A stretch of DNA of 64,000 nucleotides, taken from NCBI GenBank assembly GCA_933822405.4, contig CAKOGP040001770.1:248001-312000 (forward strand). Direction: 5' to 3'. Positions 1,045 through 7,363 of the stretch are shown one piece after another. Position numbers and translations under genes: made by a program. Position 1 is the stretch's first letter, and each line of letters starts with the position of its first letter. The notes under the pieces are model-generated. The model was not told where the DNA came from. It worked only from the letters and a program-made list of their open reading frames with translations, and ran no database searches. The DNA comes from Cylindrotheca closterium (lineage: Eukaryota > Bacillariophyta > Bacillariophyceae > Bacillariales > Bacillariaceae).

Positions 1045-1334
1045 TGACTACCCTGTCTAGTCTAAGAACAGATAAGATCAAGCACCGTAGGTGTGCTATA
1101 AATTACTTTCGTCTTTATTAATTTTCGGAAGACAATGAGAATTGCATGTACTGCAGATCTTCTCGTCTTCCGAGCTTACTACTATTTCTTAGACTTTCCA
1201 TTCGTACATTTGTACTTGGGAATATACTGTCGTATATTCCTCGTTAATCCAGTATATTACATTCTCCATTCCACCTGATGAATCAGCGGTCGTATCCATT
1301 GCAGTCATGATTTCAACTCGTGACTGATGAGTCA
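1045..1334 (-). mobile_element. Putative 5' LTR of the copia-type element
   Basis: The block is bounded by TGACT on one side and AGTCA on the other, as LTR ends are (TG...CA). Read on the minus strand it contains an AATAAA signal and a 9-bp inverted repeat (GGAATATAC/GTATATTCC around 1222-1243). Six bases beyond its inner end, the minus strand reads TGGTGCTACCG, complementary to a tRNA 3' end ...CGGTAGCACCA, as expected for a primer-binding site (1028-1038). A 13-nt inverted repeat (GTCTTCCGAAAAT) links the gag leader with the LTR interior. The partner LTR is outside the window, so the boundaries are provisional. The outer end overlaps the first base of the next gene's ATG. Confidence 0.5.
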
Positions 1335-2188
1335 TGAGGTGTGATCATCATGCTCCAACGCTGGGCCATTTGGTGGAATTGGCTGCTGATCACACCAATA
1401 CTGACAGAGACAGTGAAGGAACGAGGGCGAGTACGGCTAGGTCCATTGCCGACGTTGGCACTGACCATGGCTTGCTGGCAATGAGCTTTGCACTTTCAGG
1501 AAGATATGACAGAGTATTGGGAGTCGATGTTTCAGAACAGGCACTATACAACGGGGCACTTTCGTTGCTGGAGACAGCCCAAGAAATTTATGAGCAACAG
1601 CTTGATGACGACAGCAATGGTGATGGCACTGAAGGAGAAGAGACAAGAATACCAATCACTTTTCGAGTGAGTGATGGGCTTGACAACATAGATCCAGGTG
1701 AAGCTGACACAGTGTGTATTGCTGGTATGGGGGTCAACACGATGATTAAGATCTTGTCGATGCCAAGTGATACTGCCGATATCACCCACCTGGATCGAAT
1801 ACAATGTCAGCAATTGTTGCTCCAACCCACGAATTCTCGGCCAAGTCACCTGATTCTGCTTTACGATCATTTGCAAAAGTCAGGCTGGCGACTGGTTGAC
1901 GAACGCATCGAAGAACTGTCGAAGAGATGGTATGTGTCAACTTGCTTTCAGCGAAAAAGTAAGGACGAAGAAGACAATGTGGATCCAAATATCAATACTC
2001 ATACGCCAATGGAGTTGCCAACCTCCAAGCTGATTCAGCTGAAAGACGACAATCCCATGTTTTCACCATTCCAAAAGTACGTCGCCCATCATTGTCAGTG
2101 GATCGAAATGGATGCTGGAGCACGAGGAGCACTCAAGGAAGCAGACGAGCGATGGCTAAAAGCCTTCCAGCAATTACCACGGGACTAG
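1334..2188 (+). CDS. TrmK-like tRNA (adenine-N1)-methyltransferase
   Basis: The 284-aa product resembles the TrmK family (bacterial tRNA A22 N1-methyltransferase, SAM-dependent). Motif I is IADVGTDHGLLAM near residues 38-50. An acidic GVDVSE follows near residue 63, then the family signature CIAGMG near residue 128 and LLLQPTNSRP near residue 161. Bacterial TrmK is about 230 aa; the extra length is a Glu/Asp-rich insert near residues 90-105 and a C-terminal helical tail. ATG 1334 is the only start after an in-frame TGA at 1328. It touches the LTR end, so an original N-terminus or transit peptide may have been lost. A damaged copy of the last 46 codons lies at 4823. Substrate in a eukaryote is inferred; it could act in plastid or mitochondrion. 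Confidence 0.7.
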   Translation: MRCDHHAPTLGHLVELAADHTNTDRDSEGTRASTARSIADVGTDHGLLAMSFALSGRYDRVLGVDVSEQALYNGALSLLETAQEIYEQQLDDDSNGDGTEGEETRIPITFRVSDGLDNIDPGEADTVCIAGMGVNTMIKILSMPSDTADITHLDRIQCQQLLLQPTNSRPSHLILLYDHLQKSGWRLVDERIEELSKRWYVSTCFQRKSKDEEDNVDPNINTHTPMELPTSKLIQLKDDNPMFSPFQKYVAHHCQWIEMDAGARGALKEADERWLKAFQQLPRD

Positions 2189-2340: not shown

Positions 2341-2378
2341 TGAAAGTGTGCATTATTTTTCTCATATAATGCTCCCAT

Positions 2379-2872
2379 CAAAGATCCTAGCAAAAGGGTA
2401 CTCGAAGGGCTTAGACTCAGCATCCACCAGCAGCGGCGTCCTCGCCACTGCTCTTGAGGACAGGAAGTGAGACAATCTCTTCTTAGCGCTTCACGGAAGC
2501 CTATCTTTGGTTACTTAGTATGGTTTATGCAATGTGTTCTATTGGAGTTTTAGGATTCATTGGTGTGGTGAATACCAACCGTTTCGGTAAGTTCCTTTTG
2601 AAAAAGGTCACCCCATTCTTTATGGCCACTCCATATCCTTGTATCACTTGGGTCCCAAGTATGTAGTGAACACCAAGGACCTTTTCATTTTCAGTCTTGT
2701 CAACCACCGCCTTGGTAGAGGCATTTCAGTAAAGCTATTGCTTCTCCGAGATGGACCATACTCCAGTGGAGTGAATTCTTGGTGACAGAGCGACTTCAAC
2801 ATGTTGATTGTTTTTTATTACTACTCCTCGCATATATCCGCGAACTAAGCTTTTCGTTGGCATCGTCTTCCG
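2379..2872 (-). pseudogene. Degenerate copy of the thioredoxin reductase 3' end
   Basis: Read on the minus strand this matches the last exon and proximal 3' UTR of the thioredoxin reductase at 5268-7363. A recognisable stretch is VDKTENEKVLGVHY near 2690. The C-terminal codons TGC TGA GTC TAA are still visible near 2410-2420. Small indels break the frame at several points, and about 42 bp of AT-rich sequence is inserted near 2808-2850. The roughly 215-bp part of the 3' UTR that holds the SECIS candidate in the intact gene is deleted here. The copy lies downstream of the intact TrmK gene, as half of a local duplication. Confidence 0.85.
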
Positions 2873-3023: not shown

Positions 3024-4557
3024 ATGTTGGATGACTCTCTGTGGGATACATTTCTTTGGGATGATTACTTTCTGACTGACGAGGATGTTTCTGACACCAA
3101 CATTAAGCCAGATGAGGATGAGAGCAAGAGTGCAGAAATATTTTCAGTACCAGTTCCACAAAATGCCTCTGATCCCGAAAGTGCCGCCTCCTTGATTGCG
3201 TCTCAAATGGCAAAGCTATCAGTCGCTGATCGAGAAAAGGCATACAATGACGTCCATGCGATACCAGACGACTTTGTAAAGGAAACTCCAGAACTAATTC
3301 ACAATAGTTTATGGGGACTACAAGGCGAGATCGATATCCTACCTGACAAGAAAGCGTACAGCATTGCTGAACAACTGAATCCAACATATACACAGGATAG
3401 AGACTTTCGACTTGCGTTTCTTCGATGCGAGAAGTTTGATTGTAAAAAAGCAGCGCTTCGATTTGTCCGTCATTTTCAAATGAAATTGGACTTGTTTGGT
3501 CAGGATAAGCTTGTAAGAGACATTACTCAAGATGATTTGGATGCGGATGAAATGGAAATTCTCCATCTTTCAAATGGAAGATTCTTGAACGCGCATGATA
3601 AGGCTGGAAGACGCATGAATATGATTGTTATGGTGAATAAAACGTACAGGACCGACTCATGTGTAAGTTCAGAAGTCTAGAAATCTAGCTTCATCGATAT
3701 GCTACGGTACTTTGTCTCAATTCAACCAATTGTAGCTTCGGAAATCCTTTTATATCACAATGGCAGTATGCCGTGAAATAGAGATACAACGACGTGGGCT
3801 TGTAAATGTAAGTATCCAGTTTGGAAATGAAGTCAAGGGCACGAGTGCCGATAATCTTGATCTTGTCTGGAAGTTGCCAAAGCAAAATCAAGCAATTCCC
3901 TTGTGGCACTCGGCTATCCATCTATGCTGCACTAAGGGAGCATGGGAATCTCACTATGCGATGGTTAAGACTGCACTCGACAAGCAGAGCCAAGTTAGAT
4001 GTCGGGTGCATTGTTGTGGTACGTGATTGGGTTCCCTATCTGTACGAGCCTAGTAGAGACCGACTTGATTCGAATCCTGGCTCACTTGGCCTTTTTTCAT
4101 AGATACGATCCTCGAATGCTTAGAAGAACTACGCGGATATGGAATCGACCCATCTTGTATACCTGTGAACAATAAAGGCGAGATCACTGACCGTATCAAA
4201 GATCATAAAAGACTAGAACAACAACGGCGGCAGGAGCGCTTGAGATATCCAACTCCTAACATGATTGGTGTTCCATTTTGCGAGGATGTTTTGTTGGGCA
4301 AGGGCACCCCATTTCAGATCCACCGTGGCAACAAAAAGCTACAACAGTTTGTAGCAGATCGGTACAAGAAGTACGAAAGAGCGCAAAAAGGGGCAAAGAA
4401 GGCTGTTGCTCAAGAAATCATCAATGTCGTTAGGGGCAATGGGGGCCTCTTTCTAAAGCAAGATGGCAACAAGTGGGTTCCAGTCACCGATGATGTGGCG
4501 CTGTTGAAAGTTGCCGCTCTATTTCGATATTTGCGGTTGAAGAATGGAAAAAAGTAG
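3024..4557 (+). CDS. CRAL-TRIO-like / DUF6824 fusion protein
   Basis: Three exons are proposed: 3024-3662, 3736-4018 and 4103-4557 (458 aa), with introns GTAAGT...TTGTAG and GTACGT...TCATAG that keep the frame. Residues about 50-270 match a diatom family related to Sec14/CRAL-TRIO lipid-binding proteins: DRDFRLAFLRCEKFDCKKAA, then FYITM and QRRGLV across the first intron, and ILECLEELRGYGI across the second. The C-terminal part is a DUF6824 domain (DVLLGKGTPFQIHRGNKKL, later GNGGLFLKQDGNKWV). DUF6824 is abundant in diatoms and of unknown role. The gene lies between the two arms of the 2.05/4.82 kb duplication. Function inferred from domains only. Confidence 0.75.
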
Positions 4558-4822
4558 TGCAGTGACTATTGCGCCGAATTCCGTACACTACTACTCGGCA
4601 ATTCGACATTTTTTCATCCGCCGCTGCATATTGCCGTTGAAACAGCTTTACATACTCGAAGCAAAAGATGGCGTGCTACAGTAACGGCATCGTCGAACGG
4701 GAACGCACGGTAGTTGCCAAATTGGCTCCTGTTTCATGTTGGGCATTTTTGAAAACCGCCGTATTCTTCATACCGCCTCTACCTGTCGGCAACTTTCCTC
4801 ATGATGATGGAGGGCAGACCAT

Positions 4823-4960
4823 AATCCCATGTTTCCAGCATTCCAAAAGTACGTCGCCAATCATTGTCAGTGGATCGAAATGGATGCGGAAGCGCGAGGG
4901 ACACTAGAGGAAGCAGACGAACCATGGCTAAGAGCCTTCCAGCATGTAGCACGAGACTAG
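4823..4960 (+). pseudogene. Duplicated 3' fragment of the TrmK-like gene
   Basis: This stretch repeats the last 46 codons of the TrmK-like gene (2051-2188) including the TAG stop. The residual peptide is FQKYVANHCQWIEMDAEARG and onward, with no start codon or methyltransferase core. The similarity continues through the 3' flank to about 5020. It forms the left part of the second duplication arm, whose right part is the intact thioredoxin reductase 3' end. Confidence 0.85.
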
Positions 4961-5071
4961 TGAAGATAAGCGTTAGATGAATGAAAGTGTGCATTATTTT
5001 TGTTATTATATAATGCTCCCATGAGATGAAATTCATCTGTACACATGTAAATTTAGACCATTGACGAATAC

Positions 5072-5185
5072 TGCATTGTTTTTCAAAAAAAGTTTCTCAG
5101 GCATTGATACAAAGAGGACCTTGCATTCCTCCTTGTCTCGAGCCGTCATTCACGCCTTAAAAAGACGTTTGTTGAAAACAATACA
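5072..5185 (-). promoter_or_regulatory. Candidate SECIS element in the thioredoxin reductase 3' UTR
   Basis: Read on the minus strand, the fold has a basal helix of 14 pairs (TGTATTGTTTTCAA with TTGAAAAACAATGCA, one bulge). The quartet ATGA is at 5149-5146 and the opposing GA at 5098-5097. Above it GGC pairs with GCC and GAGAC with GTATC, then come an unpaired AA eleven bases after ATGA, a 6-bp upper helix (GGAGGA/TCCTCT) and an 8-nt loop. ATGA - AA - GA in this order and spacing fits a form II eukaryotic SECIS. It starts about 125 nt after the in-frame TGA. Folded by eye only; the middle of helix I is irregular. Confidence 0.6.
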
Positions 5186-5267
5186 TTGTCAAGAGCTCTA
5201 TTCAAGTCACGCTGGATCTCTCCAACGCAGCCCTTCAAAGACCCTAACAAAAGGGTCCTCGAAGGGC

Positions 5268-7363
5268 TTAGCCTCAGCATCCACCAGCAGCGGCGTCCTC
5301 GCCACTGCTCTTGGTGATGGAAAGTGAGACGATCTCTTCCGAACTGGTTGGGTGAATACCAACCGTTTCGGTGAGTTCCTTGAAGGTCACTCCCTTCTTC
5401 ATGGCCACTCCATATCCTTGCATAACTTCACCAGCATTGGGTCCCAAGTAGTGAATACCAAGGACCTTTTCATTTTCCGTCTTGTCCACCACCACCTTGG
5501 TAAAGGCATTTCCGTAAAGCTGTCGCTTCTCCGAAATGGACCACTCCAAGGGAGTGAATTCTCGGTGATAGACTTCAACATTGTCCAAACCAAGCTTTTC
5601 GTTGGCATCGTCTTCCGATAATCCCACGCAGGAGTATTCCAATGGTGTAAATACAGTGGTACAAATGTTCACATAGTCCATTGGTTCTTGGGAATTTCCA
5701 AACAAGCGACGAGCAAGGGCAACACCAGCTTGAATGGCGACTGGTGTCAACTCGGGGCATCCCTGCAAACAAATGAAAAAAAGAGAAAAGAGTAAGGTTA
5801 GAACGGAACAAGTGTCGACAGAACTGTGCATGCCAGACTTCTAGACTCACCTCCATGACATCACCGACAGCGTAAATGTTGGGGGTTTCCGTTTGCTCAA
5901 ATTTAGTATAAATCTTCTTATTCTTTGGGTTAGTCTTGACTCCAACATTTTCCAATCCCAGCTTGTCCGTATCCGCATGACGTCCAATGGCACCCAAGAC
6001 AGTGTCATAGGTATCCGAGGAACCATCCGAGAAGGTAACCTTGATTTGATCATTCTCCACCTTTTCCAACTTGGTGGGAGTCACCTTGGTAATGAACTTG
6101 ACCCCATGGCTCATCATGTTTTCCCCAATCTTGTCGGCACATTCGCGATCAAACCCACGCAGCAGGATACTTCGGACCGCAACGGTAGTATCAAATCCCA
6201 TGGCGGCAATGAATCCAGCGCACTCCAAACTAATGTAAGAAGCGCCAACGCACAAGGTCTTTCCAGGACCATTTTCCAAAAAGAAAACATCATCGGAGGA
6301 AATGGCAAGTTCACCGCCCTCACAATCCAAGGGGGCAGGACGACCACCAACAGCCACCAAGACACGCGACGTCGTGATGTCGCTCTTATTTCCCTTCTTG
6401 TCGGCAACTTCAATGGTGTGAGCATCCTTGAGAGTGGCAAGTTTGTTCAAGTATTGGACCGATTTTTCACGAAGACGGACGCGGTACTTGAAATTCAAAC
6501 TGCGAATGTAATTCTGAATGTTCATGCGAGCGGTCTTCCAGTGGGACACCGTCTCGACTCCAGGAAGTTCGTCCATGACATCTGGCTTGACATCAGCACC
6601 GACCGCGATACCAAAGTGTCTAGCATCCGCTTCCATGCTCTCTTTTACTCCAGCACCAATGTGATACAATTTCTTGGGAATGCAACCGACATTGACACAG
6701 GTTCCTCCCAAACCCCATTTGGTTCCCATGGGCGATGGTTTGACAAAATCACAGAGGGCAACCTTGGCTCCAAGCTCCGCAGCCTCCTTGGCCGCCGCCA
6801 TACCACCAGATCCTCCTCCAATCACTACCAAATCGTAATCGTATCCGTGATCGGCCTTATGTCCATCGTCTTGCATCAAAATGGGAGACTTTTGAATGTC
6901 AGAAGGTGTCATGAACCCACGAGCCCACTCCATGGCAGCATCGTGACCACCCAAGTACTTTTCAATATCTGCTGGATCCGGATCTCCATCTTTTGAGGTC
7001 TTGGAGAACCAAACAACGGGACTGCTGACGTGCTTCTTGCCAGCTTCCGTCCCAAAGTTGTTCCGAAAGCCATCATCGACCAACCATTGACGAAAGGCAG
7101 GTTTGTCATCAAATTCGTGCTCGACAACCTTGAGGCGGTTGGGGAAGAGTAGAGAGAGGGAGCCGAGACATCCCGTGATGCGCTTGTAAAAGCCGCCTAA
7201 AAAGACGAACCATGGATTCAATCAATCAATCAATCAATCATTATCGCAAGAGGTGTCGTTGTGAGTGTTTCTGGATGGCAACCTCAAACTTTCATTCCTC
7301 ACACTGAACGAATCACTTACATCCATTCATTCCTGCAACATGCAGGATATGAGGACTTGACAT
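5268..7363 (-). CDS. Thioredoxin reductase, selenoprotein (C-terminal GCUG)
   Basis: Three exons are proposed: 7363-7321, 7196-5851 and 5762-5268, with introns GTAAGT...TTTTAG and GTGAGT...TTGCAG; 627 aa. It is an FAD/NADPH disulfide reductase that reduces thioredoxin. The FAD motif VVIGGGSGGMAAAKEA is at residues 138-153, the redox pair CVNVGC at 181-186 inside WGLGGTCVNVGCIPKK, the NADPH motif GASYISLECAGF is mid-protein, and the His-Glu pair is in GIHPTSSEEI. The last codons are GGA TGC TGA GGC TAA: Gly-Cys-Sec-Gly-stop, as in Sec-type high-molecular-weight TrxR. A plain reading would stop at TGA (5276-5274). Residues 1-110 form a glutaredoxin-like module with CGFY where CPYC is usual. Start ATG 7363 follows an in-frame TAA. 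Glutathione reductase is excluded by the GCUG tail. Confidence 0.9.

Follow-up and report, generated by a model that had tools for sequence, protein, structure and literature searches.

The thioredoxin reductase gene (TrxR) studied here, from the diatom Cylindrotheca closterium, carries a hairpin 5 nt after a penultimate UGA codon, the first base of the hairpin being the A that ends the UAA stop. Judged from its sequence, the gene very probably encodes a selenoprotein of the high-Mr thioredoxin reductase type, with selenocysteine (Sec) at the UGA. By analogy with known selenocysteine redefinition elements (SREs), we give an even chance to the hairpin being such an element, overlapping the TrxR stop codon. 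The gene is a further diatom Sec-TrxR, a kind of enzyme which is already known, and the hairpin is the part of interest to specialists. All coordinates refer to the window, i.e. the whole 64,000 nt stretch of DNA that was analysed (GCA_933822405.4, contig CAKOGP040001770.1, positions 248,001 to 312,000). The assembly searched comprises 47.6 Mb in 572 contigs.

The span of 5268..7363 in the original prediction is correct; its strand, absent from that claim, is minus, and the gene runs from 7363 to 5268. The final codons GGA TGC TGA GGC TAA were read as claimed, at 5282-5268 on the minus strand. The product has 627 residues encoded by three exons, with Sec at residue 626 and the end Gly-Gly-Cys-UGA-Gly-UAA, and both introns have GT-AG ends. 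The parts of the gene are as follows.

7321..7363, minus strand: exon 1, beginning MSSPHILHVAGMNG..., with the start ATG at 7363
7197..7320, minus strand: intron 1, GTAAGT...TTTTAG
5851..7196, minus strand: exon 2, with the remainder of the N-terminal glutaredoxin-like domain, the FAD/NADPH domains and the CVNVGC redox site
5763..5850, minus strand: intron 2, GTGAGT...TTGCAG
5268..5762, minus strand: exon 3, with the dimerisation domain, the C-terminus ...AAAGGC-Sec-G and the stop TAA at 5270-5268
5274..5276, minus strand: TGA codon taken as selenocysteine, residue 626

The protein scores 622.7 bits against NCBIfam TIGR01438 (thioredoxin and glutathione reductase), which has a cut-off of 475.85, and contains the Pfam domains Pyr_redox_2 and Pyr_redox_dim. 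The closest solved structures by sequence are TXNRD2, TXNRD1 and others, followed by TGR, with an E-value of 3.3e-150 for mouse TXNRD2. Both the FAD/NADPH disulphide oxidoreductase fold and a TGR/TrxR subfamily score were found in TrxR. The redox pair CVNVGC is located at residue 181 and the C-terminal GGCUG at 623; the FAD/NADPH module with CVNVGC and the C-terminal Gly-Cys-Sec-Gly are common to TrxR, mammalian TXNRD1/2 and Schistosoma TGR. A structure model was available for the homolog P0001, which shares the start MSSPHILHVAG with TrxR (17-row alignment, mean pLDDT 76.7, C-terminal tail below 50). When this predicted structure was used in Foldseek, Schistosoma TGR ranked first, and both TGR and TrxR structures matched.

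The reading as a Sec-TrxR, put forward in the original prediction, is supported at the level of sequence by the TIGR01438 match, by the UGA at precisely the place of Sec, by the Sec genes in the genome and by a SECIS-like element downstream. Also in agreement with that prediction, by which a standard gene caller would lose two residues, a plain open reading frame finder halts at the TGA and returns an ORF of 185 aa (5274..5831). The same holds for the gene predictions of relatives. A total of 7,766 homologs pass an E-value of 1e-30, among the best of them sequences from Cylindrotheca fusiformis, Nitzschia inconspicua and a member of the Bacillariaceae, and end points were counted for the best 120. 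Of these 120, 106 have as their last residue the Cys that precedes the UGA (103 with GGC, 2 with AGC and 1 with GSC), one (P0086) ends in C-W-G, as if the TGA had been read as Trp and then Gly followed, and 13 have other ends and are apparently mispredicted. This is a further instance of gene callers removing the catalytic residue from thioredoxin reductases of diatoms.

These end points are what would be expected if the UGA were a true stop and the enzyme worked as a Cys-ending truncated reductase. Homologs ending at Cys do not discriminate between the two readings, however, as a gene caller stopping at the UGA yields the same end, and conservation of the UGA among these homologs, which are protein sequences only, is deduced from the shared end point. 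Termination at the UGA also gains something from the SECIS candidate, which is not a textbook one (see below). Against it stand the order Cys-UGA-Gly-UAA, which is the exact Sec-TrxR signature, the persistence of UGA-codon-UAA even in a decayed copy of the gene, and the presence of Sec machinery and sister selenoproteins in the genome. In print since 2007, thioredoxin reductase is named among the T. pseudonana selenoproteins (PMC2375036), and algal TXNRD is described as mainly Sec-containing (PMC7539508), which likewise argues against termination. We consider a true stop highly improbable. As far as the excerpts of these two accounts go, they agree with ours in having a Sec thioredoxin reductase with a SECIS in the 3' UTR; a hairpin at the UGA is not mentioned in those excerpts, with which the comparison was made by description only.

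The selenocysteine capacity of the genome was assessed from its tRNA and protein genes. Five tRNA-Sec genes score above the Rfam cut-off, and ARAGORN assigns the anticodon TCA to all five. Four of them form a tandem array of about 550 bp (L009-L012, G000:C168:176390-176933) and the fifth (L013) is found elsewhere. Multiple tRNA-Sec genes are noteworthy, and four are given for the diatom Fragilariopsis cylindrus in the part of the report consulted (PMC5330540). The selenophosphate synthetase gene (SelD/SPS2) has a single in-frame TGA in the context LKG-TGA-ACK, and SepSecS was found as two matching stretches, the second containing one TGA. One TGA is present in five of the seven GPx matches, and a TGA also occurs in one of four Rdx matches (SelT) and in one of two SelM-like matches. 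In these seven GPx, SelT and SelM-like genes the TGA is at the expected Sec position, and in L019 and L022 it is near an exon start. Since tRNA-Sec, SPS2, SepSecS and sister UGA genes are all present, the organism has a working-looking selenoprotein system, and we infer that SBP2 and eEFSec are present as well.

A loose SECIS scan was carried out over 1,177 nt from the UGA. It gave one good place, about 120 nt past the TrxR stop, with GAATGAC at 5151 and TGAG at 5099-5096.

5096..5151, minus strand: SECIS-like element, GAATGAC ... AA (11 nt after the quartet) ... TGAG

The element is SECIS-like rather than proven, and we regard it as likely to be active as a SECIS. The distances of 11 nt from quartet to AA and of 34 nt from AA to GA are inside the SECISearch limits of 10-13 nt and 15-39 nt, as these are quoted in PMC2375036. 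By energy the candidate is borderline, the thresholds being -12.6 for the whole element and -3.7 for the upper stem-loop. The upper stem-loop reaches -6.7, within its threshold, and the inner stem with the AA held unpaired reaches -12.1 with the closing TGAG or -13.2 with the next GA, on either side of the whole-element threshold. Unconstrained, the inner stem folds at -18.1 kcal/mol, with the AA paired to UU. With flanks included the stretch folds at -20.6, but in that fold some of the quartet region is paired in another way; the flanked stretch is only a little more stable than shuffled sequences (z -1.35, with 16 of 200 shuffles as good). The lower stem is weak, and helix II has three consecutive unpaired nucleotides on its 3' side (ViennaRNA), a feature which a published filter excludes.

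We also compared the element with the selenoprotein genes of the same genome. The motif [GT]AATGA[CT] lies no more than 150 nt past the stop in eight of nine such genes and at 387 nt in the ninth; the rate of the motif in the window is 0.37 per kb and strand. For this count the stop of L022, which follows an intron, was located by reading the sequence, and L039, a tenth locus, is excluded for want of a placed stop. When the criteria also require a closing GA and one stem that folds at -14 kcal/mol or lower, with 400 nt scanned per gene, five of the nine genes retain a candidate, in each case no more than 150 nt from the stop, and four have no passing fold. The background consisted of 300 nt segments taken from the window and from 12 other loci, with both strands included and the TrxR 3' UTR excluded. 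Here 3 of 676 segments reach -14 and none of 676 reaches -18, the TrxR value being -18.1. These motif statistics are partly circular, since GAATGAC was recognised after viewing the same UTRs. The Rfam SECIS families gave no match in the first 9 kb of the window or in the TrxR 3' UTR, and RF00031 gave none across the genome, with scores computed for 133 of 915 candidates. None of the nine sister selenoprotein loci matched the Rfam SECIS families either, so that this search is insensitive here.

Two groups of sister genes have downstream elements of their own. The GPx-type genes L017, L020 and L022 have TAATGACGGAG (two genes) or GAATGAC (one gene) soon after the stop, followed by a very short stem at most before TGAA; these are either unusual SECIS elements or remnants. 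The SelM-like paralogs L038 and L039, located on different contigs, have a common downstream element GAATGACAAGGCGAAG...CTTGCCCTT(T/C)GATATGGC, which is perhaps their SECIS, although it failed the fold criterion.

The hairpin after the UGA had escaped the original prediction. It has a stem of 17 bp (15 Watson-Crick and 2 G-U pairs) and a loop of 6 nt, and a second, smaller hairpin adjoins it.

5229..5268, minus strand: hairpin after the UGA, arms 5268-5252 and 5245-5229, loop 5251-5246
5209..5228, minus strand: second small hairpin, 8 bp, adjoining the first

The 57 nt starting from the UGA fold at -34.8 kcal/mol, compared with a mean of -16.7 for shuffled sequences (z -6.87, none of 200 shuffles as good). 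Windows of 57 nt were sampled every 10 nt on both strands of the whole 64 kb, and among the 12,790 folds obtained the hairpin is the most stable, the two nearest values belonging to windows that overlap it. Pair probabilities within the hairpin are 0.9-1.0 in a context of 421 nt.

An SRE is a stable stem-loop approximately 3-6 nt after a Sec UGA, and the hairpin with its 5 nt spacer fits this description. In the portions of the literature consulted, the redefinition element of SelN is placed 6 nt after the UGA, and stem-loop 1 of SelS, which promotes Sec insertion, is said to start 3 nt into the 3' UTR (PMC3628699). A stem-loop a few nucleotides past the Sec UGA is thus common to SelN, SelS and TrxR, and SelS resembles TrxR further in that its Sec is penultimate and its stem is at the start of the 3' UTR (PMC3628699, PMC8704476, both as excerpted). 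Comparable stems in SPS genes are discussed, again going by an excerpt, in PMC4561486. Unlike the SelN and SelS elements, the putative element described here is in a diatom thioredoxin reductase, and its stem takes in the last base of the stop codon. Among the titles listed by the literature search, none points to a redefinition element in a diatom or in a thioredoxin reductase.

If the hairpin acts as an SRE, a ribosome arriving at the UGA, codon 626 of TrxR, would have the hairpin at its entry channel, which would slow termination and favour Sec insertion. Two RNA signals would then serve the penultimate UGA, a SECIS at a distance and a stem close by, an arrangement also found in mammalian SelS. 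Nearly as probable, in our estimate a little below even, is that the SECIS inserts Sec alone and that the hairpin serves some other purpose (stabilising the mRNA, protecting it from decay or processing its 3' end) or none. The hairpin overlaps the stop and opens the 3' UTR, a place of many kinds of structure, and no comparably strong hairpin follows the UGA in any of the eight other UGA genes checked (-4.6 to -18.4), both of which favour a SECIS acting alone. The 5 nt spacing, resembling those of SelN and SelS, counts against it. As a redefinition element, the hairpin offers an opportunity to test for a further recoding signal at a Sec codon outside animals. If this is true, a SelS-like use of two signals in an unrelated gene and lineage would suggest that stems tend to be recruited where the Sec codon is penultimate.

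Two other assignments of the hairpin were dropped. With respect to a bacterial SECIS, the upper stem has no bulged U, though the loop has adjacent G and U (features as given in PMC8704476). The miRNA-type matches in Rfam (mir-136, 21.6 bits with a gathering score of 64) are far under the cut-off and merely reflect the shape of a hairpin.

Being an inverted repeat, the hairpin could in principle be what is left of an element, mobile or repeated, whose arms are inverted. Complete pairing of the two arms is seen only in RNA of the mRNA strand: the hairpin stretch folds at -31.9 on this strand and at -23.7 on the opposite one, because both DNA mismatches pair as G-U only on the mRNA strand. A search of the genome with 261 bp, by a method which skips very common words, returned only the query itself and a decayed duplicate. 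An origin from a mobile element, which we hold to be very unlikely, was therefore rejected. The duplicate lies near the gene and is marked by two features.

2374..2872, minus strand: decayed duplicate, covering a portion of TrxR exon 3 and the beginning of the 3' UTR
4816..5022, no strand assigned: partial duplicate of the end of a TrmK-type methyltransferase gene and sequence beyond, marking the same duplication

The TrmK-type gene (1334-2188, plus strand) and TrxR (minus strand) are convergent neighbours, and their facing ends have been duplicated. A DUF6824 gene is located at 4165-4557, between the two duplicated gene ends. The left copy keeps pieces of TrxR exon 3, at 81-97% identity, along with much the greater part of the hairpin arms. 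At 2425-2411 it reads GGA TGC TGA GTC TAA, so that TGC TGA followed by one codon and TAA is indeed retained, as originally claimed for this damaged copy, with Val and not Gly after the TGA. Its hairpin is broken, as three stem positions differ and the 3' arm lacks its final two bases, which are beyond the break, and the region (45 nt) folds at only -6.7. The 208 bp at 5023-5230 of the right copy, where the SECIS candidate is located, have no equivalent on the left, and [GT]AATGA[CT] was not found in the 1,231 nt scanned there. Both RNA elements are kept in the copy with the whole TrxR gene and both are lost in the other, a pattern that fits selection on both elements but comes from one case only. 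With its RNA elements gone and its codon order kept, the decayed duplicate provides a natural comparison for the intact TrxR.

The N-terminus of TrxR forms a conserved diatom domain with the motif CGFY, covering residues 1-110 (6910-7363, minus strand, in exon 1 and the start of exon 2). The glutaredoxins compared from the same genome mostly have CPFC or CPYC, and two have CGFS. Pfam gave no match for this domain of the window protein, and single members of the family give stray matches with a best E-value of 0.036; a PDB sequence search using a profile of the domain gave no match. Using hhalign, 13 diatom N-termini were aligned with 10 glutaredoxins from the same genome, with a probability of 78% and a P-value of 1.8e-5, and both the Cys and the GG-DD motifs were aligned. 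A beta-alpha-beta order is predicted for the domain. In Foldseek the whole P0001 model is placed onto TGR at an rmsd of about 13, and the VIA rows are mostly within 130-626. TGR carries an N-terminal glutaredoxin domain too; compared with TXNRD1/2 and TGR, the N-terminal domain of TrxR is far diverged. By sequence comparison it appears most like a monothiol-type glutaredoxin, and it is not claimed as a new fold. If it is a glutaredoxin, TrxR would be a TGR-like fusion.
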